IMG/VR virus record: IMGVR_UViG_3300047997_000056
Span: 1 to 50,435 of that record
Length of the DNA: 50,435 nt
From: a virus
Strand: one strand, 5' to 3'
Positions 3,566 to 37,329 of the stretch are shown here, in pieces. Under the pieces are notes generated by a model. The model worked only from the letters and a program-made list of their open reading frames with translations. It made no database searches and was not told the DNA's origin. The position numbers were made by a program, and so were the translations under genes. Positions within the stretch are counted from its first letter, which is position 1; each line of letters starts with the position of its first letter.

Positions 3566-4079
3566 ATAGCAGCTTCCAAGCGGGTGTTGGGGGGTCTGGT
3601 AGACACTTCGACCACTGGCACTCAGCATCGCGCCATTGCTTTCGTGCTGACTTATAGATGGTATCGTTCGCAGCATCATCACGATACATCTTGAAGATTT
3701 TAGCAGATTCTGCGTAACAGCACGTCGCATGGTCCGTCTCTTGCGGACGAATCTTGCCATTTTTAGCGTATTTACGTCCAGAATGGTGATTTGCGTAGCG
3801 TCGTGCTCTTGTAAACCCCATTTCAAGGAACTTTCTGCACATGTCCATGCCAACAAAGTCCCCTTCAGACATATATTCGTAAAACTTGCGATGCAGAGTC
3901 TCCGCACTGACCTGTGCCTCCTCTGGAGTTTTAAAACGCCAGAAAAGACAGAGTTGTGCAGAATAGGGTTGAACTAGCAACACTCCTTGTTCGCCGCGGC
4001 CAATACGATAGAGATGACGCTTATCATTCTCTGTGAAGTCAAGTGACTTGTAGTCCAACGAATAATCAAACTCAATCAT
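3564..4079 (-). CDS. DUF4385-like protein
   Basis: From ATG 4079 the product is 171 residues, MIEFDYSLDYKSLDF and onward. Features that point to the DUF4385 family are RIGRGEQGVLLVQPY, WRFKTPEEA, FVGMDMCRKFLEMGFTRARR and YANHHSGRKY. The biochemical role of that family is not established; it occurs in bacteria and large phages. I reject the 13-residue longer start at 4118 because that DNA codes for the end of the gene at 4072-4233, giving a natural short overlap. The C-terminus carries Cys and Trp residues and ends PAWKLL. Confidence 0.75.
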   Translation of the reverse strand: MIEFDYSLDYKSLDFTENDKRHLYRIGRGEQGVLLVQPYSAQLCLFWRFKTPEEAQVSAETLHRKFYEYMSEGDFVGMDMCRKFLEMGFTRARRYANHHSGRKYAKNGKIRPQETDHATCCYAESAKIFKMYRDDAANDTIYKSARKQWRDAECQWSKCLPDPPTPAWKLL

Positions 4080-4233
4080 CAGTCTGCTTACGATTCTTGA
4101 TAGTGTGTGGTTTCTCAAACTTGAACTTCTTGTTCATTAGTTTGTTCTCATGTCTGATAGCATTGAGAAGATCATTACGATCTTCCCAACACCCGTAGTC
4201 AAATTCACCCTTGTCTCTTGTAGATTTCGTCAT
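4072..4233 (-). CDS. 53-residue basic protein, function unknown
   Basis: A frame from ATG 4233 to TGA 4072-4074 encodes MTKSTRDKGEFDYGCWEDRN and then a Lys-rich second half (NKKFKFEKPHTIKNRKQ). It overlaps the genes on both sides by a few bases (8 downstream, 29 upstream). The strongly basic tail suggests nucleic-acid contact, but no domain is recognised. Confidence 0.65.
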   Translation of the reverse strand: MTKSTRDKGEFDYGCWEDRNDLLNAIRHENKLMNKKFKFEKPHTIKNRKQTDD

Positions 4234-4363
4234 TGATCTTTTGATGTAGTTTTTGATGCTTCAGGGCAGGAAGATCAATCTGTTCTGCTTCAGCAATAGT
4301 ATACGTTGTTGTTCTTTCCAGAACAGTTCGTAGGTATACAAGTTCGTCAAGGTTGAGTTGCAT
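4205..4363 (-). CDS. 52-residue helical protein, function unknown
   Basis: ATG 4363 to TGA 4205-4207 encodes 52 residues starting MQLNLDELVYLRTVLERTTT. The charged heptad-like pattern and the length suggest a single helical hairpin. No clear Shine-Dalgarno sequence is seen. It overlaps the downstream gene by 29 bases. Confidence 0.6.
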   Translation of the reverse strand: MQLNLDELVYLRTVLERTTTYTIAEAEQIDLPALKHQKLHQKINDEIYKRQG

Positions 4364-4389
4364 TGTTCAGTATGTAATAAGTTGTGGTT

Positions 4390-4476
4390 CTAACGTTTGT
4401 GATTCCTTACTCCCCATGTCATCTCCATTGCTATTGTCAGCAATAGGATGAACACTAGGACGAAGATTGTGCTCAC
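4390..4476 (-). CDS. Candidate 28-residue membrane miniprotein (GTG start)
   Basis: GTG 4476 overlaps the upstream stop as GTGA, and the frame codes for 28 residues, almost all of residues 4-17 being hydrophobic (IFVLVFILLLTIAM), followed by a basic tail ending VRNHKR. The classical coupling overlap and the positive-inside tail favour this over the competing 40-residue frame 4367-4489, which has no recognisable character. Very short, so confidence is limited. Confidence 0.45.
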   Translation of the reverse strand: MSTIFVLVFILLLTIAMEMTWGVRNHKR

Positions 4477-4616
4477 TTTCCAACTCCATAGTCACCACCA
4501 TCCTCTGCATGTTTGCGTTCAGTTTCATGTAATGCTTTGAGTGCCTCTTCAACCTCAGGAGAATGTTCCCACTCCCACATGTCACCCTTCTCAGTGATTC
4601 TGCTCTTCGTGCTCAT
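4473..4616 (-). CDS. 47-residue acidic helical protein, function unknown
   Basis: ATG 4616 to TGA 4473-4475 encodes 47 residues: MSTKSRITEKGDMWEWEHSP, then a helical EVEEALKALHETERKHAED segment and a Gly-rich end. It overlaps the upstream gene by 26 bases. The composition is protein-like in this frame only. Confidence 0.6.
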   Translation of the reverse strand: MSTKSRITEKGDMWEWEHSPEVEEALKALHETERKHAEDGGDYGVGK

Positions 4617-4792: not shown

Positions 4793-5200
4793 TTAACTCG
4801 TCTGCGCTCCCAAGGCATCAAAATCATATCTGAGTTTGTAGTCTTTGGGGAGCATATTATATCTAGTAATGTGCTTCTCTGCGTGTTCAAAGCATTGAAA
4901 GTGACACACTTTGCTCTCACGCTTGTCATCAAGACGATAAGGAAATGTCTCCCATGGGAATAGTTTCTTATCGTATGATCTAACTGCTACGATATCAGAC
5001 TTCTTCTTTCCAGAAGTCTTCCCAGTCTTCTTGCGTGGCGGTGTTGATGTTAATGTTTTGAGATTCTCCTCTAGTTTCTGTTGAGGCGATGATTTCTTCG
5101 GCGTAGGTGCGGAGGACTTGGTTGAAGTCTTCTTCTGTGAAGTCGTTGAAGATACTTTCTTTGGGGTCGTTTTCGTCCCACGAGATTGTGAACGTGCCAT
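4793..5200 (-). CDS. Basic protein with Lys/Thr/Ser-rich N-terminal half
   Basis: 135 residues from ATG 5200 (MARSQSRG). The first 70 residues are a low-complexity Lys/Thr/Ser/Pro stretch. The second half is a compact, aromatic-rich region (KKLFPWETFPYRLDDKRESK, then HFQCFEHAEKHITRYNMLP). The C-terminal half looks like a conserved phage domain of unknown role. The N-terminal half lies out of frame over the acidic gene 4995-5225. No start codon was found between residue 1 and the compact domain, so I keep the long form, with some doubt about how much of the N-terminus is translated. Confidence 0.55.
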   Translation of the reverse strand: MARSQSRGTKTTPKKVSSTTSQKKTSTKSSAPTPKKSSPQQKLEENLKTLTSTPPRKKTGKTSGKKKSDIVAVRSYDKKLFPWETFPYRLDDKRESKVCHFQCFEHAEKHITRYNMLPKDYKLRYDFDALGAQTS

Positions 5201-5225
5201 CGTTTTCTTCTTTAACATCAATCAT
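4995..5225 (-). CDS. Acidic small protein, function unknown
   Basis: 76 residues, very acidic: MIDVKEENDGTFTISWDEND, then FNDFTEEDFNQVL and a C-terminal EDWEDFWKEEV. It overlaps the stop of the exported putative peptidase gene by 8 bases. It shares 206 bases out of frame with the next gene. Regular hydrophobic spacing suggests a folded domain, and I recall similar short acidic proteins in T4-like cyanophages. No function assigned. Confidence 0.65.
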   Translation of the reverse strand: MIDVKEENDGTFTISWDENDPKESIFNDFTEEDFNQVLRTYAEEIIASTETRGESQNININTATQEDWEDFWKEEV

Positions 5226-5898
5226 TAATGTAACCGTTTAACTCTAAGTATTTACGAGTCAAGGGAGTTGGTTCATATACTTCCCACATATTACCACCAG
5301 CACATGCAGCAAGAGCATTCATTGTCATGTTCTCAGTTCTACCTGCCCAACCTGCTTCTGCTTCCCATGCCACAACATTCTTAGGATAAGTGCGTTCTGC
5401 CATCACACGCCAGATGATAGGAACAGAGTCTTCAGGCATGATGATAGCAATTAAACTATTATCAATTGTGCCTGCCATACAATCTTGTGCAGCGTGCCAT
5501 CCTTCATGTCTCATCACCATCATGAGTGTGCTAGGATTGCCCATGTAATCCTTATTCAGGAAGAAGTTGTTGCTTACTGTGTGATAGACACCACGATGAC
5601 CTGATGGGAAATACTTTTCATCTGCAAGGAATACATTCACACCAATTTGATTGAGTGATGTAAGCATATTATGGAACTCACCAGTGACACCAGTGAATTC
5701 TTCAGTATTAGGATACTGTGATGAGATGTCAAGCATCGAGAATACTTTTACAACACCATCAGTGCATTCACCTAATAGCATACAACCCATGGCATCCATA
5801 GAGTTATATCCTTGTGTGATCTTACTATCATCAGCAAGTGCAACTTGTGCTGTGCTGAGTGATAATGCAGCAAATAGTGTAGGAAGAAATCGTTTCAT
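5218..5898 (-). CDS. Exported HExxH putative metallopeptidase
   Basis: 226 residues. MKRFLPTLFAALSLSTAQVA followed by LADD is a clear Sec signal peptide, with likely cleavage after ALA at residue 22. Residues 131-135 are HEGWH, a zinc-binding HExxH motif in a helix (MVMRHEGWHAAQDC); WEAEAGW near residues 178-184 could supply a third glutamate ligand. The mature protein would act in the periplasm or outside. Possible targets are peptidoglycan, envelope proteins or a superinfecting phage. Four cysteines (39, 45, 140, 199) may form disulfides. The exact family is not recognised. The start overlaps the downstream end of the next upstream gene by 4 bases. Confidence 0.7.
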   Translation of the reverse strand: MKRFLPTLFAALSLSTAQVALADDSKITQGYNSMDAMGCMLLGECTDGVVKVFSMLDISSQYPNTEEFTGVTGEFHNMLTSLNQIGVNVFLADEKYFPSGHRGVYHTVSNNFFLNKDYMGNPSTLMMVMRHEGWHAAQDCMAGTIDNSLIAIIMPEDSVPIIWRVMAERTYPKNVVAWEAEAGWAGRTENMTMNALAACAGGNMWEVYEPTPLTRKYLELNGYIND

Positions 5899-6104
5899 GA
5901 ATTTAATGCAGAATGATCTGCGACAGTGTGTGATAGACGACGCTCAAGTTCAACGTCATTGATATTGTTTCTGAATGCTAGTGCTTGAGAGTCGTGTCGT
6001 GTCTGACTCCACATACAATCAATGAGATATTGAACCTCACCGATTGTTAAATCAACACTGACAGTATCAGAATTCTGAGAGGAGATCTTCGGGGAGGAGT
6101 TCAT
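5895..6104 (-). CDS. Small helical protein, function unknown
   Basis: I choose ATG 6104 (MNSSPKISSQNSD), giving 69 residues, because the longer frame to 6140 would lie inside the small gene 6067-6210. The core SVDLTIGEVQYLIDCMWSQT reads like a helix-strand unit common in small phage proteins that take substrate-position hydrophobics (LTIGEVQYL). No motif assigned. Confidence 0.6.
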   Translation of the reverse strand: MNSSPKISSQNSDTVSVDLTIGEVQYLIDCMWSQTRHDSQALAFRNNINDVELERRLSHTVADHSALNS

Positions 6105-6210
6105 AGATTTGATTGCTAGGCATGTTGTAATCTGCTTCATAAAGAATACGAGTGCGCTCTTCTTCTGTCATCTCAGCAGGGTCGATGATGTCGTTGATCA
6201 CGTTGTTCAT
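6067..6210 (-). CDS. 47-residue acidic protein, function unknown
   Basis: ATG 6210 to TGA 6067-6069 encodes 47 residues starting MNNVINDIIDPAEMTEEERT and ending PEDLLSEF. It directly follows a strong promoter (6226-6254), so it should be the first gene of a transcript. Acidic and helical; not recognised. Confidence 0.65.
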   Translation of the reverse strand: MNNVINDIIDPAEMTEEERTRILYEADYNMPSNQIYELLPEDLLSEF

Positions 6211-6225
6211 TGTGTAACTCTTGTA

Positions 6226-6254
6226 ATTATAACAGTAGAATGGGGCGGAGTCAG
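6226..6254 (-). promoter_or_regulatory. Extended -10 sigma-70 promoter
   Basis: On the minus strand: CTGACT (6249-6254), 17-base spacer, TGT immediately before a perfect TATAAT (6226-6231), i.e. an extended -10. It lies 16 bases before the start at 6210 and directly after a hairpin. Confidence 0.75.
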
Positions 6255-9757: not shown

Positions 9758-10110
9758 TATTCGTTATCCGCTAGTAGTTGACCTTGAGGACTGTATACAG
9801 CATAGAAGATATAATCTTCTGGTCTGGTGCATGATTCCTGATTAACTGGGAATAGATCCTCACACCATTCCATTGCCTCTGTTACATTATCACAGACAAT
9901 AAATGTATACTCAGACTCGTGAAGAGCACCGAAAATATCAACTGGTAGTCTGCTTCTATACAGATCATATGATGCATTGATTGCATCAACATCACTGCTG
10001 CTGTTCCAACCAGTAGAACGCAGGAAGATAACAGTTTTCTCTTGACGCTTAGCAGACTCTTCAATAAAGTCTTGCAAGTAATCAATAGTGTAGTTTGCGT
10101 GTAGCTCCAT
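9757..10110 (-). CDS. Protein of unknown function
   Basis: 117 residues, acidic, rich in Tyr and Asp, with VTEAMEWCEDLFPVN and YIFYAVYSPQGQLL near the C-terminus. It overlaps the 2OG oxygenase gene upstream by 29 bases and the next gene by one base. The position between an oxygenase and another unknown tail-region gene suggests a shared process, but no domain is recognised. Confidence 0.6.
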   Translation of the reverse strand: MELHANYTIDYLQDFIEESAKRQEKTVIFLRSTGWNSSSDVDAINASYDLYRSRLPVDIFGALHESEYTFIVCDNVTEAMEWCEDLFPVNQESCTRPEDYIFYAVYSPQGQLLADNE

Positions 10111-10597
10111 TTAACTTCCAGGCGATTGTAACTCTTAATGAATTGAATGTTCTAGAGACTTCTTCTGCATAGTGTGTCATACGTCCATTGAAGAATACTG
10201 CTTTATTAGGTGCAGGTTCAGCATATGTCCATTTACCATCACTACCTTGGAATGCAGTCTTACCGCCCCAGGTTTGTTCCCACATATGATTTGCATACAA
10301 TAGGAATGTTCTACAATCATCATAATGACCATCAGTGTGAGGCATTGCCTTATCACCAAATACATGTCCATTTGCATAGACACGTTCTAACTCTAGGTCA
10401 GGTTCATTGGTCACGTCTCTAATAATATTTAGGAGATAGTCATTATAAAATTGTTCGTCATCTAGTTTCATCTCCCAAAATGGGATGTCATGATTTTTTG
10501 ATACTGATGCATGACCATAACTCCATTGTGGTCTTGCCATGTCTTGTATGATTTGAGCGAAGTCATATTCACCAAAGACTTGATCATAGATTTCCAT
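10082..10597 (-). CDS. Fe(II)/2-oxoglutarate oxygenase 1
   Basis: 171 residues. The metal triad is visible: HTD at 87-89 (in MPHTDGHYDDCRTFLLYAN) and His142 in NGRMTHYAEEVSRT, with Arg155 (SLRVTIAWK) as the 2-oxoglutarate-binding arginine. W-GGKTAF and PNKAVFFNG are typical strands of the jelly-roll core. The enzyme should couple oxidative decarboxylation of 2-oxoglutarate to hydroxylation of a substrate that the sequence does not reveal. It overlaps the next oxygenase by 14 bases, so the two are probably made together. Confidence 0.85.
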   Translation of the reverse strand: MEIYDQVFGEYDFAQIIQDMARPQWSYGHASVSKNHDIPFWEMKLDDEQFYNDYLLNIIRDVTNEPDLELERVYANGHVFGDKAMPHTDGHYDDCRTFLLYANHMWEQTWGGKTAFQGSDGKWTYAEPAPNKAVFFNGRMTHYAEEVSRTFNSLRVTIAWKLNGATRKLHY

Positions 10598-11258
10598 ATT
10601 CTCTAATAAAATTAGTTCTTACTTGTTCAAATGGCACAAGAACTTCTTGTGGTGCATCAGGAAACTCTTTCAATAGTTTCTCAATACTTTTACCAAAGTT
10701 GAGAATTTGATGACGCATGAAGAAGTCTTCGATAAGACTAGTTGCCCACATGAGTGCAACACGACGCTTACCAGATGTCACAGGTGCAACATAATGCATA
10801 TATCCTGTAGGATATACTAATGCCGTGCCTGCTTTTTGTTTAAATTTGAATGGCATGTCACCATCAGTGATCACTAGTTCCCCACCCTCATATTCATCAG
10901 GGTCATTGAGGAACAATGTGATACTGTGATGTGCTTTTAGTCCTTGAACAGTAATATTGTCAATGTGTGGATTATACTTTCCACCCTCACGATACTCTGT
11001 CAATTGAGGAACTGTCATCTCTTTCACAACGAAAGTAGATCTGAATGCAGTAGCATCATTGATACCCTGCTGAATCAGTTCTAAACTCTTTCTAAACTGT
11101 GATGTATGCTGAGACATAACGTAGTTATCCTTGACGGATGTGTCTACATTATTCTCATCACGTTGGGAAACAGTTCCTTGTGTAAACTCTGCCTTGTCGT
11201 ATAAAGAATTGATATGGGTCAGTTGTTGTTCATTAAGAATCTCACATTCATAAAACAT
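10584..11258 (-). CDS. Fe(II)/2-oxoglutarate oxygenase 2 (PKHD/PiuC-like)
   Basis: 224 residues. HID at 98-100 (KYNPHIDN), distal His155 (GYMHYVAPVTSG) and Arg166 (KRRVALMW) form a complete facial triad with the cosubstrate arginine. YEGGELVI and AGTALVYPTGYMHYV match the PKHD-type hydroxylase (PiuC/YbiX) pattern. The C-terminal 50 residues after the jelly roll are helical and Lys/Glu-rich. The substrate is unknown; peptidyl hydroxylation is the family's usual assumption. It lies 2 bases after the tail-fibre-assembly-like gene. Confidence 0.87.
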   Translation of the reverse strand: MFYECEILNEQQLTHINSLYDKAEFTQGTVSQRDENNVDTSVKDNYVMSQHTSQFRKSLELIQQGINDATAFRSTFVVKEMTVPQLTEYREGGKYNPHIDNITVQGLKAHHSITLFLNDPDEYEGGELVITDGDMPFKFKQKAGTALVYPTGYMHYVAPVTSGKRRVALMWATSLIEDFFMRHQILNFGKSIEKLLKEFPDAPQEVLVPFEQVRTNFIREYGNL

Positions 11259-11260
11259 AG

Positions 11261-12184
11261 TTAGTCGTCCAGGATAAATTGACTGCTATCGAAATCGGGG
11301 TAGATTGATTCTACCTGCATTAGTTTGATGATGTCAAGAACTTCTTGCTTGACTCTCTTACTTCCAGATGCTCTCTGCTTAGCATACATGAGTCTGTTGA
11401 TCATTCTGCTATCAAGGAAGTCAGATGATGCATCATCATCATAGTTTGTCCACTGATCAGAATCATCAGGATCCATGAATGCTGGTGGATTTTCTACACC
11501 ATCATATAGTTTTCTATAGTTCTTAGGATCAATAGGATAAACCTGATTGTATAGAGTTTTAGCAAACTCTAGTTTGTCACCATATTGTTCTGGCGTAGGA
11601 ATAGCAATAGATCTAATCTTTGATCTCCATGCAATCCACATTGCTTTCTCGCCTTCATAACTATCATCAACATCAGGAAGCACACGCCAATCACTAGCAG
11701 ATAGCATCAGTTGCTTCTCTCTAGTTCTCTTGATCCACTTAGATTCAAAGAAGTTGATCTCTTTGTCTAGTGCTTGAGTATTTTTAAGTGCAACATCAGT
11801 CTTACGTTTAGCAGCAACAGCAAACAATGCCAGTGCTGTGTTATATACTTGGGTTGCTTGTTCTTGACTGCTACTCTTGAATTGATACTCTTGCCAATAT
11901 AGAGACTCAGACTTGAAGTCATACTTCTGTCTCTTACGTTGCGCCGCGTAGGTGCCGTCATTATAGAAACTAAAGAAATCAAGAGTATCTTCTTCAGTAT
12001 GCCAGAAAGTTCCGATCATCTCAAGAAATTTAGTCTTGAGTTCCTCTTCAAACTCCTGTGTCTGCAGTGATGCTGTATTGAAATCCGACAACGTTGTAGC
12101 ACTGTTAGGTGCTTGCAGGATCGTTTTGTTAATAAGATCCAACTGCAGTAGTGGTTTCCTTATGATTGGTGTGCTTGAGGTCAT
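11261..12184 (-). CDS. Tail-fibre assembly (APC)-like protein
   Basis: I choose ATG 12184 (MTSSTPIIRKP), which overlaps the upstream stop as ATGA; the product is 307 residues. Residues around 162-200 carry REKQLMLSASDWRVLPDVDD, then WIAWRSKIRSIAIPTP, which follows the 'R--LL--SDW--LPD----W--YR--LR' pattern of phage tail-fibre assembly chaperones. The rest is helical and charged, larger than the usual 100-200-residue chaperones. A role in folding or trimerising the neighbouring fibres is likely. Lying between oxygenases, it may bring modifying enzymes to fibres, but that is inference. Confidence 0.65.
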   Translation of the reverse strand: MTSSTPIIRKPLLQLDLINKTILQAPNSATTLSDFNTASLQTQEFEEELKTKFLEMIGTFWHTEEDTLDFFSFYNDGTYAAQRKRQKYDFKSESLYWQEYQFKSSSQEQATQVYNTALALFAVAAKRKTDVALKNTQALDKEINFFESKWIKRTREKQLMLSASDWRVLPDVDDSYEGEKAMWIAWRSKIRSIAIPTPEQYGDKLEFAKTLYNQVYPIDPKNYRKLYDGVENPPAFMDPDDSDQWTNYDDDASSDFLDSRMINRLMYAKQRASGSKRVKQEVLDIIKLMQVESIYPDFDSSQFILDD

Positions 12185-12909
12185 GCTAGTGCCGTCTTGA
12201 TATACCATCCCGTCAAGATATATTTATCTCCGTTGAACAGTGTGTTTCCTTTGTGGACGTGTGTCATACCTGCAGGAAAGTATACAACTGTTCCTTTTGT
12301 AGGACGAATTCTTCTTTTTTGATACAAGAACTCTGTCTCACCACCCTCACCATCAGGAACATCATTAAGATAAATCATCCAGGTAACTTCTCTACATGCA
12401 TGTGATGCAGCAGAGTTTTCATAATGCCATTGATGATAACCACCAGTTGGTAGTGTCTTCTGCATCTTAACATCAGCAGAAATCATAGGAACATTCTTTA
12501 GTTGTCCAAACTCTGCCATATAATGAACCATACATGACTTCAGGAATTGATTAACCTGATATGTCATGCCTTGGTTAACATAGTTAGCAAGAACAGATTG
12601 ATCCTTTCTTGTCATGTTGCTACCATACTGTGTAGCACCATTCATGTAGTGATCATCAAAGTTTTCCTGTTGCTCCTGTGTATCACCAAAAGAGAAATCT
12701 TCTGGTCCAACAAATGAACCACGCTTGTTCAATAGATTTTCAAACCATCCAATACATTGATCACAAAATGGGGCAGGAACAAAGTTTTCCCATACCCCAA
12801 TAAAATCAGTAAATTCTGACTTGGTGATGTTTGGATCTTGCATCAACTCAAGTGGTCTCCATTGTTGGACCTTACCAACAGTGGGATCTGCATTATGTGC
12901 AATTGCCAT
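12181..12909 (-). CDS. Prolyl-4-hydroxylase-like 2OG oxygenase 3 (HxE variant)
   Basis: 242 residues. The core GGYHQWHYENSAA, WMIYLNDVPDGEGGETEF, KGTVVYFPAGMTHVHKGN, DKYILTGWY is the jelly roll of prolyl 4-hydroxylase alpha-type enzymes. The facial triad would be His162, Glu164 and His217, with Lys229 binding 2-oxoglutarate as in true P4Hs. HxE in place of HxD is unusual but may still bind iron. The N-terminal 150 residues are specific to this phage type. The gene stands directly downstream of the 1057-residue fibre, with an ATGA overlap to the assembly gene after it. Confidence 0.87.
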   Translation of the reverse strand: MAIAHNADPTVGKVQQWRPLELMQDPNITKSEFTDFIGVWENFVPAPFCDQCIGWFENLLNKRGSFVGPEDFSFGDTQEQQENFDDHYMNGATQYGSNMTRKDQSVLANYVNQGMTYQVNQFLKSCMVHYMAEFGQLKNVPMISADVKMQKTLPTGGYHQWHYENSAASHACREVTWMIYLNDVPDGEGGETEFLYQKRRIRPTKGTVVYFPAGMTHVHKGNTLFNGDKYILTGWYIKTALA

Positions 12910-16126: not shown

Positions 16127-17896
16127 TCAAATTTGACGAAGATCGTTCCAGTTACTTTCTATATCAGGATCGTTATCATCAAATCTTACTTGAATAGGAA
16201 AATTCGATCTGATCTCTGCTGCAACTTCAATATCTGTAACTACAATAGGATCACTAAGAACCAATGACTCATCAGGTGCTGCAATCTGATCAAGTGGTAG
16301 TTCATCTAAGTTATCAGGAATAGTAATATTATCAGGTGTTTCATCGACAACTACACCAACGCTAGTGTTCTGAGGATTCGTTCCACCTGCACCACTAGCA
16401 GTAGCAGTAAATGCAACAGCAAATGTTCCATGTAATGTCCATGGAATATTAAATGTTGCTGTATTGGTTATTGCTGTTCCAGATTCGTCGGATGCTGTTC
16501 CTGGCAGAGAAAGACTTTCTGTTATATTTACAGCATTACCTGTATTTGGATTTCTTTGCGTATAAATCGCATTAATAGTAACACCACTGGTTGCATATCT
16601 ATATGTCATATCAATTGACAAAGTATCGCCATAGTTAATCTGCAGTGGTGGATTATATGACAATTCTGGTGGTTGATTCACAGTAACAGTAACACCATCA
16701 GTGTCTGATCCACCGAGACCAGAAGCAGATAATGTATATGTGGTTGTAAGAGTTGGTTGAACGTTTGTATTACTTGTAAGCAAAACTCCACCAATACCTT
16801 GATCGATTGATGCACTGCTTGCATCACCAGTCACAACCCAATCTAGGTTTGCAAACTGTCCTCTAGTGATAGATGTAGAAACATTTTGTCCATCTGCTCT
16901 CAAGTTAGCAACAACTGGTTGATATACGGTAAGAATTGCTTGGGCAGTATCATTACCTGCTTGACCAATAGCAGTCAATATGTATGTGGTTGTGGAGTTT
17001 GGACTAACAACTCTAGTATCTACAGCAGAGACAGCACCAATTCCTGCATTAATACTTTGAGACTCAGAATCTATTACACCCCAGGATAGAGTTGCATTTT
17101 GACCAGCGATGATACTTGTTTTATTTAAATTGAAATAACTAATCTCTGCAACCTTTAGATTATACTGCAATGATCCAAATCCATTGCCACTCACACCACC
17201 TTGTGCTGTTAATGACAAAATACCAGCGTTATAGCGAGAAGTGCCTCCGCCGCCACCGCCACCGCCAAAATTACAGTCAGTGCCAGCACCGCCACCACCG
17301 CCACCAGTGTGACCACCGCCACCTCCGCCGCCGCCTCCGCCGTCTCCACCACCTTTATTAGCACCAGCACCACCAGTTCCTAGACTAGGGTTTGCATTAG
17401 CAAATCCACCAGCACCACCACCACCGCCTCCAGGACGTTGGGGACCACCACAAGAAAAGGATCCACCTCCACCACCACCACCGCCTCCAGCGGTGACCAC
17501 ACGAGCGCCTGAAAGACGAAAAACAGATGCTGCTCCGCCGCCTGCTCCACAACCAGACCATCCACTAGTTCCATCATCACCACCTTTACCGCCGCGACCA
17601 GTAGATCTACCTGCTAAGTTACCACCAGGACCACCAACAGCAGCACCAGATCCACCAGGACCATTACTTCCTACAGCTCCAATAAATGCTTGCCATCCTC
17701 TATCACCTGATGATGTTGGGATAGAAAATGTTCCAAATCTACCATTACCAGCACCACCACCAGGACCACCAGAGTCAAATCCACCAGATCCTCCTCTAGC
17801 ACCTCCAATTTGCATAGTTATATTTCGAGCACCACCAGGAATAATTCCTGAGGATCCCCCAAAAGCAAAACTAACAGTTACAGTTTGATTTGACAT
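16127..17896 (-). CDS. Adhesin-like fibre with glycine-rich head
   Basis: 589 residues in three parts. Residues about 1-245 are glycine-rich, with GGGAASVFRLSGARVVTAG (119-137) followed by runs of 6-11 glycines; this matches the glycine-rich domain of ALK-type receptors and some bacterial surface proteins and could fold as polyglycine-II helices, as in phage S16 adhesin gp38. Residues about 255-410 hold two Ig-like repeats (SIIAGQNATLSW, then RGQFANLDWVVTGDASSAS). A third beta module and a conserved acidic tail end in NFPIQVRFDDNDPDIESNW. The Ig repeats and tail recur in the next two genes. Probably a receptor-binding tip. Confidence 0.8.
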   Translation of the reverse strand: MSNQTVTVSFAFGGSSGIIPGGARNITMQIGGARGGSGGFDSGGPGGGAGNGRFGTFSIPTSSGDRGWQAFIGAVGSNGPGGSGAAVGGPGGNLAGRSTGRGGKGGDDGTSGWSGCGAGGGAASVFRLSGARVVTAGGGGGGGGGSFSCGGPQRPGGGGGGAGGFANANPSLGTGGAGANKGGGDGGGGGGGGGGHTGGGGGGAGTDCNFGGGGGGGGTSRYNAGILSLTAQGGVSGNGFGSLQYNLKVAEISYFNLNKTSIIAGQNATLSWGVIDSESQSINAGIGAVSAVDTRVVSPNSTTTYILTAIGQAGNDTAQAILTVYQPVVANLRADGQNVSTSITRGQFANLDWVVTGDASSASIDQGIGGVLLTSNTNVQPTLTTTYTLSASGLGGSDTDGVTVTVNQPPELSYNPPLQINYGDTLSIDMTYRYATSGVTINAIYTQRNPNTGNAVNITESLSLPGTASDESGTAITNTATFNIPWTLHGTFAVAFTATASGAGGTNPQNTSVGVVVDETPDNITIPDNLDELPLDQIAAPDESLVLSDPIVVTDIEVAAEIRSNFPIQVRFDDNDPDIESNWNDLRQI

Positions 17897-19430
17897 TAGA
17901 TTTGTTGAACGTCGTTCCAGTTAGATTCTATATCAGGATCATCATTATCAAATCTTACTTGAATAGGAAAATTAGATTTGATTGTCACTGGTATATCTAT
18001 TCCAGTAACAACAATAGGATCACTAACAACTGTCTCTTCATCAGGTGCTTCAACTATATCTTCTGGTATTTCATCTAGATTCTCTGGAAGCGTGATGTTA
18101 TCAGGTAATTGATCAATGTTAACATTAATAGTGTTACTTTGATTTACAATACCACCATCACCAGTTGCAGTAAAAGTAACAATAATACTGCTAGGACCAA
18201 AATCATTCCAAGGAACAACAGTGGTTAAATTTTGAGTTACCGATATACCAGGAGTAACAGCATCACCATTTGCAGAACCATTGACGACTGCAGTATCTGT
18301 TGATCCATCAAGATAGTTGAAAATATATGATGCGCTTACGCCACTATTTGCATACGTTGTGGTGGTATTTGCAGTAAAAGATCCCTCGTAATCAATTGTT
18401 AATGGAACACTTGCTGATAATGTAGGTCTTTGATAAACAGTTACTGTCGCAGAATCAGTATCTGATCCTCCAGGACCAGAAGCAGATAATGTATACGTAG
18501 TTGAAGCGTTAGGACTTACATTTTTACTAGAAGATAGTAGAACAGCACCAATACCCTGATCAATTGATGCTGTATCAGCATCTCCAGAAGTAACCCAAGT
18601 TAGTTGAGCAATTCCTCCAGCAATAATAGATGCTGGAATACTACTCATACTGACACTGACAGGTTGGTATACTGTTATTTGAGCACTATAATTTCTTGAT
18701 CCACCAGCACCAGATACCGTAAGAGTATAGATTGTAGTGGTGCTTGGACTAATTGTTTGAGATCCAGAACCTGCAACATTTCCTATGTTTGTAATTGAAA
18801 CTGAATCAACAAATCCACTACTAGACCAACTTAAAATTGCAGAGTCTTGTCCAGCAATAATGCTTGACTTATTAATCGAGATGCTTCCTGTTGGTGCTGG
18901 TGGTTGTGATGGTGCATCAATTGTAAACGCAATAGCATATGGATTTGAACTATAGTCGGAACCAGAACCATTACGAACAGTTCCAGAAACTGTCTGATTT
19001 CCAGGATTAGCATAAAATTGTGTGGTAGCTGCACCTCTAAATCCAGCAACACTACAATTATTACCTGCAACATTAAGAGTTGCAAAGTTATCACATGATG
19101 CTTGGACTGTATAAGTGCCAGGGTATGGAAAGTTTACAGTAACGCTAAAACTAAATGTAACACCTTCAAATGCATTACCGCTTCCAGATCCTGGTGTAAA
19201 GCGCCTACCATAAGTATTCATCAAGGTGCCCCAGGCACCATTGGTGTATCCACCATAACTATTTGGAAGATTAGCACTAGTGTAAATGATTGGCATTATA
19301 TTTCCCTAACGTCGTTCCAATTGGTTTCTAAGTTTGGATCATTATTATCAAATCTAACCTTGATAGGTTTATCAGATCTAATTTCTACTGGGATATCTAT
19401 ATCAGTAACTACGATAGGGTCACTTAATAC
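16131..19430 (-). repeat. Triplicated 3'-end segment of three adhesin genes
   Basis: The last ~130 bases of the genes ending at 16127, 17896 and 19296 are direct repeats (approximate copies 16131-16270, 17905-18045, 19312-19430). Each codes for SDPIVVT-(D/G)I, then a variable stretch, then PI-VRFD-(D/N)DP and NWNDV. Similarity weakens upstream into the Ig-like repeats and stops at the heads, showing tandem duplication followed by head divergence. Confidence 0.8.
17896..19296 (-). CDS. Adhesin-like fibre, second paralogue
   Basis: 466 residues. The N-terminal head (about residues 1-125) is beta-rich: GGYTNGAWGTLMNTYGRRF, then a carbohydrate-binding-like sandwich FSVTVNFPYPGTYTVQASCD with two cysteines. 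A PSQPPAPTG linker follows. Two Ig-like repeats (SIIAGQDSAILSWSSSG and IIAGGIAQLTWVTSGDADTAS), a third module, and the shared tail NFPIQVRFDNDDPDIESNW complete it. The start shares a base with the preceding gene and its stop shares one with the following gene, so the array is translationally coupled. The head fold is unassigned; a PA14- or jelly-roll-like sugar-binding head is a guess. Confidence 0.78.
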   Translation of the reverse strand: MPIIYTSANLPNSYGGYTNGAWGTLMNTYGRRFTPGSGSGNAFEGVTFSFSVTVNFPYPGTYTVQASCDNFATLNVAGNNCSVAGFRGAATTQFYANPGNQTVSGTVRNGSGSDYSSNPYAIAFTIDAPSQPPAPTGSISINKSSIIAGQDSAILSWSSSGFVDSVSITNIGNVAGSGSQTISPSTTTIYTLTVSGAGGSRNYSAQITVYQPVSVSMSSIPASIIAGGIAQLTWVTSGDADTASIDQGIGAVLLSSSKNVSPNASTTYTLSASGPGGSDTDSATVTVYQRPTLSASVPLTIDYEGSFTANTTTTYANSGVSASYIFNYLDGSTDTAVVNGSANGDAVTPGISVTQNLTTVVPWNDFGPSSIIVTFTATGDGGIVNQSNTINVNIDQLPDNITLPENLDEIPEDIVEAPDEETVVSDPIVVTGIDIPVTIKSNFPIQVRFDNDDPDIESNWNDVQQI

Positions 19431-21107
19431 AATATCTTCATCGGGAGCATAAACTTCTTCTTCGGGTATCTTATCTAGAGAATCTCTAATATTGAATAGA
19501 TCAGGAAGTTGATCGATTTCTACACTAACAGTAACTGCTGAGGCAAATACTGTTCCTCCACAACCACTAGCAAATAATTGGTATTGAATTACTTCTGGTC
19601 CAAAATCATCCCACGGAACGTTTGAATTAAAAGTTACAGTTTCTTCAGTGCCATTTTCGTCTGATGCAGATGTTCCTATGCTACGAGTATCGGATGTTGT
19701 AACACCTTCAATGTTAGTGTATGTAATAACTACACCCGCACCACTAGTAGCACTACTAAAAGTAACTTCTACAGTGAATTGATCTCCATAGTCAAGATTG
19801 ACTGGGAAGTTACCAGCAATTGTTGGTATCTGACATACCTTTACATCTACAAATGCTTCGTCAAATCCACCAGGACCATCAGCAGTCAAAGTATATCGTG
19901 TAGTTACATTTGGTGATACATTTGCATTACTTGCTAGCAAAACCTCTCCAGTAGCAGTTACAGGAGGACTAATAAATGCTTCGTTAGCATCCCCAGTAAC
20001 TGTCCACTGTAAGTTTGTCTGTTGTCCTACAGTAATGGGATTTGGGATAGCAGATATATTTGCAACAGTTGGTTCATAAACAGTGACGATAACTGACTTC
20101 GTTGTTTGTGACCCCTGAGCACCACCGAAATTTTTTGCTGTTATAGTATAAGTCCTACTGATATTTGGATTGACAATAATACTACCTGTTCCAACACCAA
20201 ATTCATCAAATACTGTGATAGGTAGCACATCACCAATACCTTCATTGATATCAATATCAGAAACACTAACACCTTGAACTGTCCAAGACAATGTTGCTTG
20301 TCCAGGTCTAATATATGATGATGGAGATACAGAAAATGTAACTGTTGGTGGAGGTGGTGGTAGAACTGTAACCGTAATTACTCTAATACTATTTCCTACT
20401 GGTCCAACTGCAGTTAATTGATAGTTTGTAGTTGCTGCTGGACTTACAGTAACAGTTCCAGAAGGATCAGAAACTGCACCAACACCACTAATGTCTGCAC
20501 TAGTTGTGTCTCCAAATACAATCCATGACAATGTAGCAGATCCACCGAAAGGAATAGTTACCGAGTTAACTTCATTAAAATTATTTAAAAAATTTGGATC
20601 AGTAGAGAATGATGCGCTCGGTAGAAAAAATTGATTATGTCCAGGAATCCATCTCTCACCACTGTTACTAGTCTCAAGAATAATATTGATACCAGCAGCA
20701 GTGCATCTCTCTACAAAATACTCATAGGATTTTTGAACTGTTGAATATACCATCGAACCAGAGACATCCAACCATACAGATACATAAGATCCTGGTGGTT
20801 GTGATGATAGATTTGTAATAGCAAACCAGTCTGATCGTTGACTTATATTATTGTTATCTCTATTGACAGTAAAAGTTCCCCCGCCAACAGATCCGTTAGC
20901 AAGAGAATCATTCAAAAAATTAGATGGTCTGTTTAGATCATTAAAATTCCATCTACTACCTGCTGGTTGCAACAACCAGAACTCGCGACCTACTCCACCA
21001 GCATTAGGAAAGTTTGATCTAAAACTATTCCAGTCGTTTGTATGGGTAGATACAGAAGGAGACGATTCGTCAATAATTGAAATACATTGAGTTCTTGGGA
21101 CTACCAT
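19296..21107 (-). CDS. Adhesin-like fibre with von Willebrand A-like head
   Basis: 603 residues. Residues 1-170 form a distinct head with SYVSVWLDVSGSMVYSTV: DVSGSM (114-119) matches the DxSxS MIDAS metal motif of von Willebrand A domains, followed by a helix (QKSYEYFVERCTAAGI) and strand (NIILET). The domain is short for a vWA fold, so it may be partial or permuted. Three Ig-like repeats follow (for example FGGSATLSWIVFG, PGQATLSWTVQG, VGQQTNLQWTVTGDANEAF), then the third module and conserved tail KPIKVRFDNNDPNLETNW. Probably a metal-dependent receptor-binding tip; the function is inference. Confidence 0.78.
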   Translation of the reverse strand: MVVPRTQCISIIDESSPSVSTHTNDWNSFRSNFPNAGGVGREFWLLQPAGSRWNFNDLNRPSNFLNDSLANGSVGGGTFTVNRDNNNISQRSDWFAITNLSSQPPGSYVSVWLDVSGSMVYSTVQKSYEYFVERCTAAGINIILETSNSGERWIPGHNQFFLPSASFSTDPNFLNNFNEVNSVTIPFGGSATLSWIVFGDTTSADISGVGAVSDPSGTVTVSPAATTNYQLTAVGPVGNSIRVITVTVLPPPPPTVTFSVSPSSYIRPGQATLSWTVQGVSVSDIDINEGIGDVLPITVFDEFGVGTGSIIVNPNISRTYTITAKNFGGAQGSQTTKSVIVTVYEPTVANISAIPNPITVGQQTNLQWTVTGDANEAFISPPVTATGEVLLASNANVSPNVTTRYTLTADGPGGFDEAFVDVKVCQIPTIAGNFPVNLDYGDQFTVEVTFSSATSGAGVVITYTNIEGVTTSDTRSIGTSASDENGTEETVTFNSNVPWDDFGPEVIQYQLFASGCGGTVFASAVTVSVEIDQLPDLFNIRDSLDKIPEEEVYAPDEDIVLSDPIVVTDIDIPVEIRSDKPIKVRFDNNDPNLETNWNDVREI

Positions 21108-22002: not shown

Positions 22003-23706
22003 TTAGTATGCTCTGATTACATATACTGAAGTCATTCCAGGTTGAGTCGTGTTGAAATTAATCTGGAATACACCAACGTTTCTTGCATTATCTAAATTCA
22101 AGTTACCTGCGGGAGCAGTAACGTATACGTTCAAACTATTTAATGGTCTTAGACCAGAAAGATCGAATGATACATCAAATTCATCATGAGTGTGAGAGAG
22201 AATAATATCTCTTGATGCAGCAACTCCAATAGTTGTTCTCTTAAAGTCCCAACCAGCATTACTATTAAACGTATCATAAGTATTGAATGCCGAAGGATCT
22301 GCTAGTGCTCCTGCTTCTGCATCACCATTATATTCAAGAAGATCTGGATACCAGTTAGTCAATCCATTACTGAACTGAGTTATCTGCTCACCATTCTGAC
22401 CATAGTCAACTGCTTCTCTTCCTCCAGGACCTTTGTTGAATCCAGCAATACCACCAGACAATGCACCTTTCTTTAGACCAACACCCTCATTAAATGTTCT
22501 ATGTGTGAGTGGGTGAGTCAAGACTGATTTAATGGGAGTCCACACGACGTTTCGTGGAGTCCAGTTAATTGGGGGATTCTCTGCATTAATAGCACCAATA
22601 ACACGTCCAGGGATACCACCACCAAAACCAGATCTACCTCTTAACTGATCACTCATGTTGTATTCCAGTTCAAATTCATTATCATTAGTAATGAAGATGT
22701 CACTATCAGAAGTATCAACCTGTGCATCAAAGTTAAAGTTGATGTTTGACCATGGAATCACACCTTCTCCTGGTTGTGTCTCAGGATCTTTTACAATAGT
22801 ATCAATTCTACCACCATGACCATGACCTTTAATATGTCCTCTTCCTAGTTTTCTAGGACCGAAGAACATAACACGATTACCCTGACCAGATCCTGTGACA
22901 ATAGTGTTTGCCTGTAGTTTACCACCGTAGTAGTATGAAATCTCTCCACTATCACCAGCTGGTGCTGTCGTTCTCTCATTCAATTCAAACACAACGTCAG
23001 TAGCAACATCGTTAAATGATGTAGGAACACCTGTGTCTGAGTTTACACCAATGAATGAACTAATTTCTGATACTGCTGTTGAATCAACGTCAAAAATTCT
23101 ACCAGTAGGAGATCCTGGTCCAAGATATGATTGCTCCATATCAACCAGAGGTCTATTGATTAGAGCAGGAAGAACAATCTCTCCCTGATAACTAGGAAAC
23201 TCTCCACCAAATGTAGAAACAGATCCCTCTTCAACAGTAGCTACAGTAATTAAAATATCAGATCCACCACCAGAGTTGCCTGAGGGAATAGTTAGAACAT
23301 CATTAACTTCATAGTTAGCACCTTGCTGTAGTCTTTGAACAGTAACTGTTCCACCAACACCATTAGGAGCACCGCCTGCTTGTGTTCCTGCATCAGCAAC
23401 AATGACAGCAAAAGTTGCGCCACCACCACTACCATCAATCGGTGAGTAGATATATGTATCAGGAATTCTTCCTGCTTGTGTTGATGCGTTGTTAGCAAAG
23501 GTATTGATTAGACCTTGAGTAACTGTAGTAGATAGATTGTATGTGTCTCCAATTGCTCTTGCAAGCAATGGAAAGTCTTTGGCACTGACTTGAGAACCAT
23601 CGCATACAATCCAACCGTCAGGAATATCTGAGATATTCCCGATCCATGGCATGATTGTTCCGATGGCAGCTGCCTTTGCGGTTCTGATCTCTTGATAGAA
23701 AGACAT
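22003..23706 (-). CDS. Collar-domain tail fibre, 567 residues
   Basis: The N-terminus carries the collar signature: IGTIMPWIGNISDIPDGWIV, CDGSQVSAKDFPLLARAIGD, then GEIVLPALINRPLVDME around residues 170-190. Between them is an inserted Gly/Thr-rich beta region with SGGGATFAVIVADAGTQAGG. The C-terminal half is Asn/Gly-rich with LSHTHDEFDVSFDLSGL and ends GMTSVYVIRAY. Likely trimeric fibre subunit of the same class as its neighbours at 12918-16091 and 21117-22001. The giant protein gene lies 7 bases upstream. Confidence 0.83.
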   Translation of the reverse strand: MSFYQEIRTAKAAAIGTIMPWIGNISDIPDGWIVCDGSQVSAKDFPLLARAIGDTYNLSTTVTQGLINTFANNASTQAGRIPDTYIYSPIDGSGGGATFAVIVADAGTQAGGAPNGVGGTVTVQRLQQGANYEVNDVLTIPSGNSGGGSDILITVATVEEGSVSTFGGEFPSYQGEIVLPALINRPLVDMEQSYLGPGSPTGRIFDVDSTAVSEISSFIGVNSDTGVPTSFNDVATDVVFELNERTTAPAGDSGEISYYYGGKLQANTIVTGSGQGNRVMFFGPRKLGRGHIKGHGHGGRIDTIVKDPETQPGEGVIPWSNINFNFDAQVDTSDSDIFITNDNEFELEYNMSDQLRGRSGFGGGIPGRVIGAINAENPPINWTPRNVVWTPIKSVLTHPLTHRTFNEGVGLKKGALSGGIAGFNKGPGGREAVDYGQNGEQITQFSNGLTNWYPDLLEYNGDAEAGALADPSAFNTYDTFNSNAGWDFKRTTIGVAASRDIILSHTHDEFDVSFDLSGLRPLNSLNVYVTAPAGNLNLDNARNVGVFQINFNTTQPGMTSVYVIRAY

Positions 23707-23713
23707 GTGTTTT

Positions 23714-26700
23714 TTATACGTCCATTAGATACCATCCTGCCTTATTGGGATTCGCTCCAGGACCACCATCAGCATCAGAAGTGCCAGCAAAAACAAGACC
23801 GAATGCTGCATTTGGTGTTTGAACAACTAATTCACCACCGTCGTGTGTGAGTGAGAAGTTCTCTCCTAGAGTGTTACCCGTGACAGTAGTTCCTGTGTTG
23901 CTGACCGAACCCTGAATCCTTACCAGATTAGGAGCACGAACAACTAGAGACTTGTCGTATGAAAGGATACCACCTATATCTATAATGCGAATCATATCGC
24001 CCATTTGAGCGTTCGCTGGTAGTTTGAGTAGTGATGTTCCAGAAACGTCAACGAAGTAATTAACGTTCGCTTCAGCATTAATAATATTGGTGTTAGAAAC
24101 AACCCACTTACGTCCACCAGTGCTGGAGAAGTAGTTAGAGATGCCACCAATATTAACTGAACCATCATCATCTACTGCGAATACTTCAACACCGTTCTGG
24201 TTAACTTGTAGATCACCACCATTGACTGTTAGGTCACCTGCCATTGTGACAGGACCACCGAAGGAAGACATTCCATCACCAAGTGCTGAGAATGAACCAT
24301 AAGTGGTGAAGTCACCCGAAGAGTTGTTAAAGGTTAGTCGTGGTGTAGTTCCATCAACTCCGAAGATATTGATATTACCACCATTCATCACCATATTACC
24401 AGTTGCACTATCAATTTGGAAGGTAGTTCTCAGTGGTGTAATAACTGTTACGCCATCATCCTCGAAAGAAGGACCACCGTTAGTGATAGTAAAGAACTCA
24501 GTTGAAGGAATAGTAGAACCATTCAGTGTGATGGTGTTCTCTACCGTGAGAGTTCCAGCGATGTTGGTGTTACCAGAACTACCAGCAATAGTGAACTGAT
24601 TGAATCCAAGTCCAATACCAACATTACCAGCAATAACTGTGTTACCAGTTGTAGACTCAACCTTGAAGTTAGTAACAGCAGGATCGCCACCATCGGTAAC
24701 AATCAGGGACTGAATGTCAGTGCTGACAACATCAGCAATTGCAACGATTTCAGACTGATCAATTCTCAGAAGGTCTAGTGTAGTTAGAACCCCACCAAAT
24801 TCAGCAACACCGATTCTTACGTTAGCACTGGTTCCATCGATACCAGCTCTTGGTTCATCCAAGATACCGTCAGGAACGTTAGGATCAGCAAATGAACCAA
24901 CGTCCTTACCAGTAATGTAAGATGCTGCAGGTTGCTTGTCAAGTTTAGCAATGACACAACCATCGGGGTGGTTAGTCCAACCGTCACCAGTAGCAGGATC
25001 ACCAGTTCCTTCTTGTGCTCTTGTTACAGATATTCTGAAACCTTGAGGATCATTAGGATTAGTAAGATTGTCTAGACCGACAACACGCATGATCTCAGAA
25101 TACTGCTGATCTCTCAGGTTAAGAACCTGAGTTCCACCTGCTGGAGTAACTTCATCAGGAGATGCAGCGTTACCACGATCCAAGAGGATCAGATCACCGA
25201 TATCAAAATCAGATGCAGCAGGTGTTGTGATTGGAAGGATGAATACTTCACTTGCATCAGTAACACCGTTGATGTCAAACGTAATGTCAGGAGCACCACC
25301 ACCACCGAGTTGATTATCGCGAATAGTCAATGTCTGGTTGTCAGCGTATCCAGAACCTGCAGCAACTAGTTCAACAGTAACGGTGCCGTCAAATGCAACA
25401 CCAACGTCGAATGCAGCTCCAGAACCTGTGCCACCATCAGCAAATCTGAAGGTATACTGACCAGAAACACGGAGTGCATCAGGTGCTGCTTGTAGATTAT
25501 CGAATGCTCCGATTCTACCACCACCTGCTTGGTCTTGTGATCCACCCCAGAATCTGTTACCTTCAGTATCAACGAATCTACCAGTTGTAGAATACTTGTA
25601 GAAGTCTAGGTTAGGAACGTCAAGTGAACCAAGATTGTGAAGATTGAGAGGAGTAGAGAATCTAGATCTTATAATCTCAATGATACCAGCAGTTGTTCCA
25701 CCATCTAGAATGATGTTAGAGTCTACCGTTGCAGATGCTTGAACCTTCAGGGAGTTTCTGATGGTTGTAGATCCACCTAGAGATGCAATCGTGATGTCAT
25801 TTGCCTTAGTGAATGCTTCAATGACCTGCGTTCTGTCATCATCAAAGAGTCTTGCTTTTCCTGTCTGAGTGAAGAGTCTGGAAACTCCTGTTCCAGCAGC
25901 AACTTTACTGCCAATCTCTATGTTACCAGCAGCAATTGTCTGAGAAGATCCTAAAACAACCTTGGAGTCTGTGTTTGCCCATGCTCCACCAATGAAGACC
26001 TGACATGCATTAGTAGCGTCGTCAGCAACCGATGCGATGTCAACCAGAGCGTTAGCAGACAAAGCATGAACACTGAAGATAGATCTTCCAGAGTTATTAC
26101 CGATTCTGACTGTCTGGAAGTTAGCATTACTACCAATAGTGATCGTTTGATCATTGCTAGTGTTGCTGAACATATCGATCAACTGAGCATCACCAGCAAA
26201 GTTGATGATGTTCGCGTTGTTATTGATCAGGTTGAAGGTCTCAGATGTAGTGTTGATGTCTCCACCGTCTACACTGATGTCTTGCTCCATCAAGAAGTTA
26301 CCAGTGATTCTACCATCACCGACAACAACTAGGTTACGATCCAGTTCATCTCGTGCTTGTAGTCCTAGGGTTGTGTTGATACCCAGTCTACCACCAGTTT
26401 GATAACCGATGCCTTGATCTACAACTGCAGCGTCTGTAGTTGCAACACGGAGAGTTGCACGTTGCTCTAGATCATTGCTATCACCACCAACCAGCAGTGC
26501 ATTGTCCTGAGGAATGAATCCTTGTGCCAGAAGTGGAGCACCAGTTAGACCTTCACGCTGGTCGCTATTGAGATTATTGTCATCATAGCGGTTGTCATCT
26601 ACATCACCAGCAAGATTATACTCAACCAGAGTCTTACCACTAATGAATGTTGTTCCAACAACATCCAGGGTTGCTCTTGGTGTTGTAAAGTCATCAACGT

Positions 26701-36754: not shown

Positions 36755-36762
36755 ATTTATAC
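36755..36762 (-). promoter_or_regulatory. T4-type late promoter of the giant gene
   Basis: A perfect TATAAATA on the minus strand, 36 bases before the ATG at 36718, exactly the T4 late -10 consensus. It overlaps the stop region of oxygenase 4. Confidence 0.75.
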
Positions 36763-37329
36763 GGGTGCCTTTGCTCTTTGTCCGAAACAGTTCCACATAA
36801 CGTGTTTCTGACCATAAGTAACTTTTGTAGATTTGTGAAGAAAATGTGGTCCACATGGAAACATCAGAACACTACCATTTTGAGGTTTGATTCTAAGTTT
36901 GTCATTCATAAACAAAGTATCACCTCCACCAAACCCATCATTAAGATAAAGTAGAAAAGAAACTACTAGTTGAGTATTATCGTGAGATCGATCTACATGC
37001 CAATTATAATGATCTGACTTGTCATAAAAACGATACACATAGTTAGAAATAAATCCTTGACTCTGGATAATACTATATGCGATTAAAGGACAATCTTTAT
37101 AGTATCGCATGAATGCTTTTTTGCCAATCTTATCAATTTCATAATTGAGTTCCTGCATACCATCAACATGCTTCCACTCGCCTAGATGATATCCTCGATT
37201 CTTTCTATGAAAAGTAGTATTTTTAGGATCAAACTTAAGTAGTGTAGATGCTTGTTCTTGTATGAAACCAGTTGTTCTGGGATTAACGAACCCAGGGTAT
37301 TCAATAATATATGGAGTGTGTTTAATCAT
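36757..37329 (-). CDS. Fe(II)/2-oxoglutarate oxygenase 4
   Basis: 190 residues. HVD at 111-113 (DHYNWHVDRSHDN), distal His165 (PHFLHKSTKVTYGQ) and Lys175 as the likely 2-oxoglutarate-binding residue. VSFLLYLNDGFGGGDTLF and NGSVLMFPCG are typical core strands of the P4H-like oxygenases. It is compact, with a 105-residue helical N-terminal part. It lies between the giant fibre gene and tRNA-Leu, and so flanks the opposite side of the fibre cluster from oxygenases 1-3. The substrate is unknown. Confidence 0.86.
   Translation of the reverse strand: MIKHTPYIIEYPGFVNPRTTGFIQEQASTLLKFDPKNTTFHRKNRGYHLGEWKHVDGMQELNYEIDKIGKKAFMRYYKDCPLIAYSIIQSQGFISNYVYRFYDKSDHYNWHVDRSHDNTQLVVSFLLYLNDGFGGGDTLFMNDKLRIKPQNGSVLMFPCGPHFLHKSTKVTYGQKHVMWNCFGQRAKAPV

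Follow-up and report, generated by a model that had tools for sequence, protein, structure and literature searches.

A candidate exported HExxH metallopeptidase gene common among Synechococcus phages

The candidate gene and its surroundings

The stretch of DNA analysed here (the window, 50,435 nucleotides) represents part of the genome of a T4-like cyanophage (Kyanoviridae, near S-RIM44 and Syn1). The region around positions 5218-5898 is 92-93% identical to S-RIM44 and Syn1, and the Syn1 counterpart of the protein encoded there is Syn1_053. The initial annotation had placed an exported HExxH enzyme at these positions without stating the strand. The open reading frame is borne out and lies on the minus strand; the plus strand across it contains many stop codons. 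The gene and the elements adjoining it are:

5218-5898, minus strand: coding sequence of the candidate exported HExxH metallopeptidase (226 aa, PHROG 591, T4-GC 945 in Syn1)
4995-5225, minus strand: downstream small ORF (PHROG 1364), overlapping the peptidase stop
5895-6140, minus strand: upstream small ORF (PHROG 9334), with an ATGA overlap at the peptidase start
6226-6254, minus strand: promoter-like CTGACT-N17-TATAAT with an extended -10 (TG), a consensus match in the intergenic stretch that precedes the small peptidase operon

The four-base ATGA overlap suggests that the upstream ORF and the peptidase gene probably share one transcript. The gene is one of a series of small unnamed ORFs that lie between the left window end and a helicase gene. 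Conserved neighbours were considered as possible functional partners and rejected after a comparison among 67 relatives; the downstream PHROG 1364 ORF is no conserved partner, a similar neighbour being present in 3 of the 67. This suggests that the peptidase probably works alone, needing no adjacently encoded phage partner.

Several other features of the window are recorded here in their own right. The minus-strand ORFs 4995-5225 and 4793-5221 overlap in different frames, and each matches a PHROG family over part of the overlap, so that approximately 100 bases may be coding in two frames. Three adjacent minus-strand genes at 16127-21107 all belong to PHROG 2155 (virion structural protein) and are tandem paralogues; a gene for a short tail fibre (22003-23706) adjoins them. 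Roughly a quarter of the window (23714-36718) is occupied by one ORF of 4334 aa on the minus strand. Three genes are 2OG-Fe(II) oxygenase-like (PHROG 61; 10584-11258, 12181-12909 and 36757-37329), and a gene labelled endonuclease V (PHROG 274; 10082-10597) may join this group. The neighbouring genes at 46522-48723 and 48815-50356 have matches to PHROG 5453 as well as to endolysin and metallo-endopeptidase profiles, and are possible peptidoglycan-cutting proteins of the virion.

Active site, export signal and predicted fold

The window protein is a full-length member of PHROG 591 (E = 1.6e-123, residues 13-225 on 13-225 of 226) and weakly matches PHROG 16003 (E = 4.6e-10); Syn5 gp14 shows the reverse, with a strong match to PHROG 16003 and a weak one to PHROG 591. 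Both families, like T4-GC 945, come without an assigned function, and the few database records that label relatives as 'proteolytic enzyme' or 'metallopeptidase' give no evidence. When the predicted structure of the window protein was compared with viral folds, it recovered its own family, followed by Syn5 gp14 and proteins of S-CBP42 and S-N03. Sequence searches started from these identified a diverged shorter form of 150-186 aa, corresponding to PHROG 16003. The elements of the window protein that bear on its function are:

5833-5898, minus strand: signal peptide, residues 1-22, with rule-based predicted cleavage after Ala22 (VALA-DD)
5554-5598, minus strand: H-R-G-V-Y...L-N, residues 101-115, a conserved strand pair before the active-site helix
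5494-5508, minus strand: HEGWH, residues 131-135, with predicted zinc ligands His131 and His135 and predicted catalytic base Glu132
5479-5481, minus strand: Cys140, near-universal and probably disulfide-bonded to Cys199 (codon 5302-5304)
5353-5364, minus strand: E-A-E-A, residues 179-182 in helix 173-186, with the predicted third zinc ligand, Glu179 favoured

The HEGWH motif and the two glutamates lie at the residues given in the initial annotation. HExxH occurs a single time in the ~15,700 amino acids of window proteins, arises in 0.6% of shuffles of the window peptidase, and is kept in all 81 collected relatives. His131, Glu132, His135, Glu179 and Glu181 are invariant among 56 non-redundant family members, down to 66% identity, and equally in eight far relatives of 20-25% identity. 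The dN/dS ratio of the mature part is ~0.10-0.15 against most relatives, corresponding to strong purifying selection. Together, the rarity of the motif, its retention, the invariant residues and the low dN/dS indicate that the observation is real and not a product of chance.

An alignment of 11 diverse members shows which residues the long and short forms have in common. Gly86, Gly103, Arg130, His131, Glu132, His135, Gln138, Cys140, Glu179 and Glu181 are invariant, and Cys199 nearly so, giving a shared frame R-H-E-x-x-H-x-x-Q-x-C ... E-x-E-[AT]. Gly103, invariant across the superfamily, falls in the strand pair of residues 101-115, which is likely to form the substrate edge strand; the model places strands 104-106 and 112-115 there.

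The initial annotation left the choice of the third zinc ligand between Glu179 and Glu181 to structure prediction. Since both are invariant, conservation alone cannot choose between them. Glu181, two residues on and about 200 degrees around, lies on a different face of the helix from Glu179. The usual pattern for the third ligand in gluzincins is E-x-x-A; Glu179 is favoured because E179-x-x-A182 fits it, residue 182 always being Ala or Thr. In this argument we used the alignment that keeps both glutamates and the following A or T, in which ExE is invariant and followed by A or T in 11/11 members; an alternative alignment moves ExE by two residues.

Structure prediction agrees with this layout. 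An AlphaFold2 model of the window protein based on 56 sequences (mean pLDDT 86.9) contains helix 65-84, strands 89-92, 104-106 and 112-115, an HExxH helix at 122-141 and an ExE helix at 173-186. A model of the short podovirus form P60 gp06 (pLDDT 83.4, exceeding 90 in the greater part of the catalytic region) has the same order of elements. In both models HExxH and ExE fall in neighbouring helices. Foldseek searches of the PDB with both models returned mostly HExxH zincins as top matches, all weak (E >= 0.1): M34, M61, jannalysin and MATCAP for both, and additionally IrrE, Wss1 and PPEP-2 for P60 gp06.

Sequence searches of Pfam, NCBIfam and the PDB with the window protein gave nothing significant, and matches to KaiC, aldolase and antibodies in the PDB searches were set aside as chance. 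Sub-threshold Pfam matches of the relatives are mostly to metallopeptidases (M76, 1e-3; Zn_peptidase_2, 6.5e-4), and neither the window protein nor its relatives match M34, M48, M61, M76 or Zn_peptidase above the curated cutoff. As no PDB fold scored better than E = 0.1 and no Pfam profile reached its cutoff, the assignment to peptidases rests on motif, topology and the company of fold matches. The modelled topologies agree with a gluzincin, and this company is telling although each match is weak. On these grounds of sequence and model, the window protein is likely to be a peptidase.

The N-terminus of the window protein reads MKRFLPTLFAALSLSTAQVALA and continues with DD; it is positively charged and includes a hydrophobic segment as well as an A-x-A site for cleavage. 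Signal peptides were judged by a simple rule on n-, h- and c-regions and not by a trained predictor. Among 45 tested minus-strand ORFs of the window only the peptidase passed, and 78 of 81 family members passed as well, upholding the clear signal peptide of the initial annotation. The N-termini of all 11 diverse superfamily members are likewise hydrophobic and positively charged, of the export type.

Counterparts of Cys140 and Cys199 are both present in 10 of 11 superfamily members, and a disulfide between them is likely from the sequences. Four cysteines after residue 25 occur in 79/81 family members; the second pair lies on a strand hairpin in the short forms, the long form having Cys39 and Cys45 instead. 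Export-type N-termini combined with paired cysteines are the pattern expected of proteins acting outside the cytoplasm. The earlier reading of an exported protein with a zinc-enzyme signature is thereby supported, by the signal peptide and by the conserved HExxH and ExE, and from its sequence the window protein is very probably an exported zinc hydrolase.

Distribution among phages and timing of expression

Using tblastn, we found proteins of the PHROG 591 type in 366 phage records, all of them cyanophages. They are present in 362 of ~434 T4-like records labelled Synechococcus or 'Cyanophage', the denominator being records with this label and a T4-like gp6, many of which are near-identical isolates. 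The tail-lysozyme gene was rejected as a denominator in favour of gp6, as it is not core. The short form is carried by T7-like podoviruses (Syn5 with gp14, S-TIP28, P60 with gp06, and S-CBP42), by S-CRES phages, by the siphovirus PSS2 and by several myoviruses. Some genomes, for example S-B05, RB11-B, S-CREM2 and S-N03, contain two versions. When viral contigs were scanned using the short forms as queries, only close copies came up, and plasmid searches for relatives of the peptidase gave nothing credible.

The gene tracks Synechococcus rather than Prochlorococcus phages. Among 16 chosen genomes it is present in one of nine phages isolated on Prochlorococcus (P-RSM1, host MIT9303) versus six of the seven others, S-PM2 being the sole genome of these seven without it (Fisher P = 0.009, not corrected for relatedness). 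S-SM2 was a known positive before the count, and leaving it out gives P = 0.011; the record of S-RSM4, also among the seven, names no host. P-TIM40, a phage of Prochlorococcus NATL2A, carries the gene too.

Apparent cellular homologues in assemblies of Formosa, Proteobacteria TMED61 and Nonlabens were rejected as cyanophage-like: the Nonlabens contig is P-TIM40-like DNA, and in Formosa and TMED61 nothing but this phage-type gene matches. The Nonlabens contig (NZ_RMVE01000006.1, Nonlabens xiamenensis 1Q3, Bacteroidota) is 98.8% identical to P-TIM40 over the 10.7 kb examined and comprises 188,235 bases, against 188,632 in P-TIM40. This has the appearance of a cyanophage genome that remained in a bacterial assembly.

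The initial annotation assumed early expression. The ORF itself cannot show timing, and the assumption gains indirect support from two sides. In five podoviruses (Syn5, P60, S-CBP42, S-TIP28 and the environmental podovirus L108) at most one gene separates the relative from the phage RNA polymerase gene downstream of it. In T7-like phages the region upstream of this gene is transcribed first, by the host polymerase. In the window, the promoter-like site matches the host-type consensus at 10 of 12 positions and is identical in one relative (L002). Over 55 relatives the best promoter score within 700 bases upstream averages 10.1, compared with 9.1 in shuffled sequences and 8.9 in gene bodies. The Syn9 relative, gp219 (3850-4503 of its locus), directly follows psbA-psbD and is not in an early block, which suggests that timing may differ between phages. 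The Syn9 transcriptome has reportedly been published. Judged from gene position and promoter-like sequence, early expression may be regarded as rather likely.

Possible roles and relation to known enzymes

The explanation that we favour, and consider moderately probable as a whole, is that of an exported early zinc peptidase made by the infected Synechococcus cell. A host-type promoter would allow the peptidase to be made early in infection. The protein would cross the plasma membrane, be trimmed after Ala22 and then form its disulfides. Zinc would be bound by His131, His135 and Glu179, with Glu132 as the base that activates water, and, on the far side of the plasma membrane, the enzyme would cleave a single host protein or a small number of them. 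As to the benefit, we tentatively suggest that a surface or periplasmic protein is disabled, closing the cell to later phages, as in the superinfection exclusion of the initial annotation, or blunting an envelope response.

A different view takes the protein for a captured cyanobacterial envelope enzyme that sustains a host process, such as protein quality control or the maturation of nutrient uptake, after host transcription stops, much as phage pstS and psbA keep host processes going in infection. Synechococcus elongatus was the sole match to the PHROG 16003 profile among 14 control genomes (E <= 1e-6), with no match at 1e-5 in 298 other Proteobacteria genomes, and on the strength of this profile match a cyanobacterial host origin of the gene is possible. 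The genome scan recovered no close cellular copy beyond the three cyanophage-like cases, one of which is P-TIM40 itself, and the early position suggests takeover over maintenance. We regard a housekeeping role as unlikely.

The Sec-type signal peptide by itself is compatible with a second destination, since cyanobacterial Sec signals direct proteins to the periplasm and also to the thylakoid lumen. There the enzyme could act on photosystem proteins of the lumen, trimming them or promoting their turnover, alongside the phage PsbA and PsbD and so sustain photosynthesis. The Syn9 copy behind psbA-psbD and the P-TIM40 copy ~0.5 kb after psbA suggested such a linkage, but psbA or psbD lies within the flanks (up to 3 kb) in 3 of 86 loci, which is about chance, and near the gene in none of six further genomes. 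The podovirus relatives adjoin the RNA polymerase gene and not photosynthesis genes, and the bias towards Synechococcus over Prochlorococcus phages has no obvious photosystem reason. A lumenal role appears doubtful.

Many double-stranded DNA phages of Gram-negative bacteria require an outer-membrane step, and an exported protein with four conserved cysteines could cut protein links between the outer membrane and peptidoglycan at the end of infection, a spanin-like job. Such help with lysis is improbable, because the gene is not beside holin or endolysin genes, its podovirus counterparts belong to the early region, host-type promoter-like sequences are found upstream and some phages have two versions. 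An exported metal-binding protein that keeps the zincin fold without hydrolysis (a zinc scavenger, inhibitor or binding decoy) would fit with the literature searched, in which we found no measured activity for any family member, but is very unlikely, as Glu132 is invariant in every member down to 20% identity and a non-catalytic binder would not need the base.

Returning to the exported early peptidase, we propose, as a conjecture of comparable tentativeness to that on its benefit, that a host-derived enzyme of this kind is common to Synechococcus phages with three types of tail and alters the outer face of the infected cell. The gene would then track Synechococcus because the substrate is a Synechococcus envelope protein. 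If this is true, a peptidase acting on the outside face is a general and so far unrecognised arm of cyanophage takeover, reaching beyond the cytoplasm. Most cyanophage genes are unnamed, and this one is widespread, has conserved catalytic residues and has a copy in Syn9 (gp219). If an envelope protein is cut, the substrate would point to a surface target, possibly a receptor, worth attacking for many Synechococcus phages, and the difference in gene content between Synechococcus and Prochlorococcus phages would be explained.

Among known enzymes, M34 proteins (anthrax lethal factor and the Pro-Pro endopeptidases) are the top fold matches of both models (E 0.11 to 0.6), as a common zincin core would lead one to expect. 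They differ in showing 7-14% identity, poor superpositions (rmsd 7.6-14 A) and no sequence match, and the likeness gives no reason to see a toxin in the window protein. Jannalysin (4jix) has a similarly small HExxH scaffold and recurs as a match of both models, and the M. jannaschii genome gives a weak match to the PHROG 591 profile. The Foldseek E-values are, however, 1.2-9, the PDB searches gave no sequence match, and to our knowledge jannalysin is not exported.

In predicted layout the family resembles the gluzincins (MEROPS clan MA(E)), with which it has in common the HExxH helix, a later helix bearing an invariant Glu in E-x-x-A, and the preceding strand pair. It differs from them in giving no family-level sequence match for the window protein, in its own RHExxHxxQxC...ExE arrangement with likely disulfides, and in the ~75-residue N-terminal extension of the long form. 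HExxH hydrolases are a known kind of enzyme, and the sequence family itself was known but unexplained; the literature searched contains no description of the PHROG 591/16003 proteins. The joining of PHROG 591 with PHROG 16003, their export and their early placement are new as far as that literature goes, and outline a cyanophage-wide family that spans three tail types, is predicted to be exported, is probably expressed early and is tied to Synechococcus hosts.
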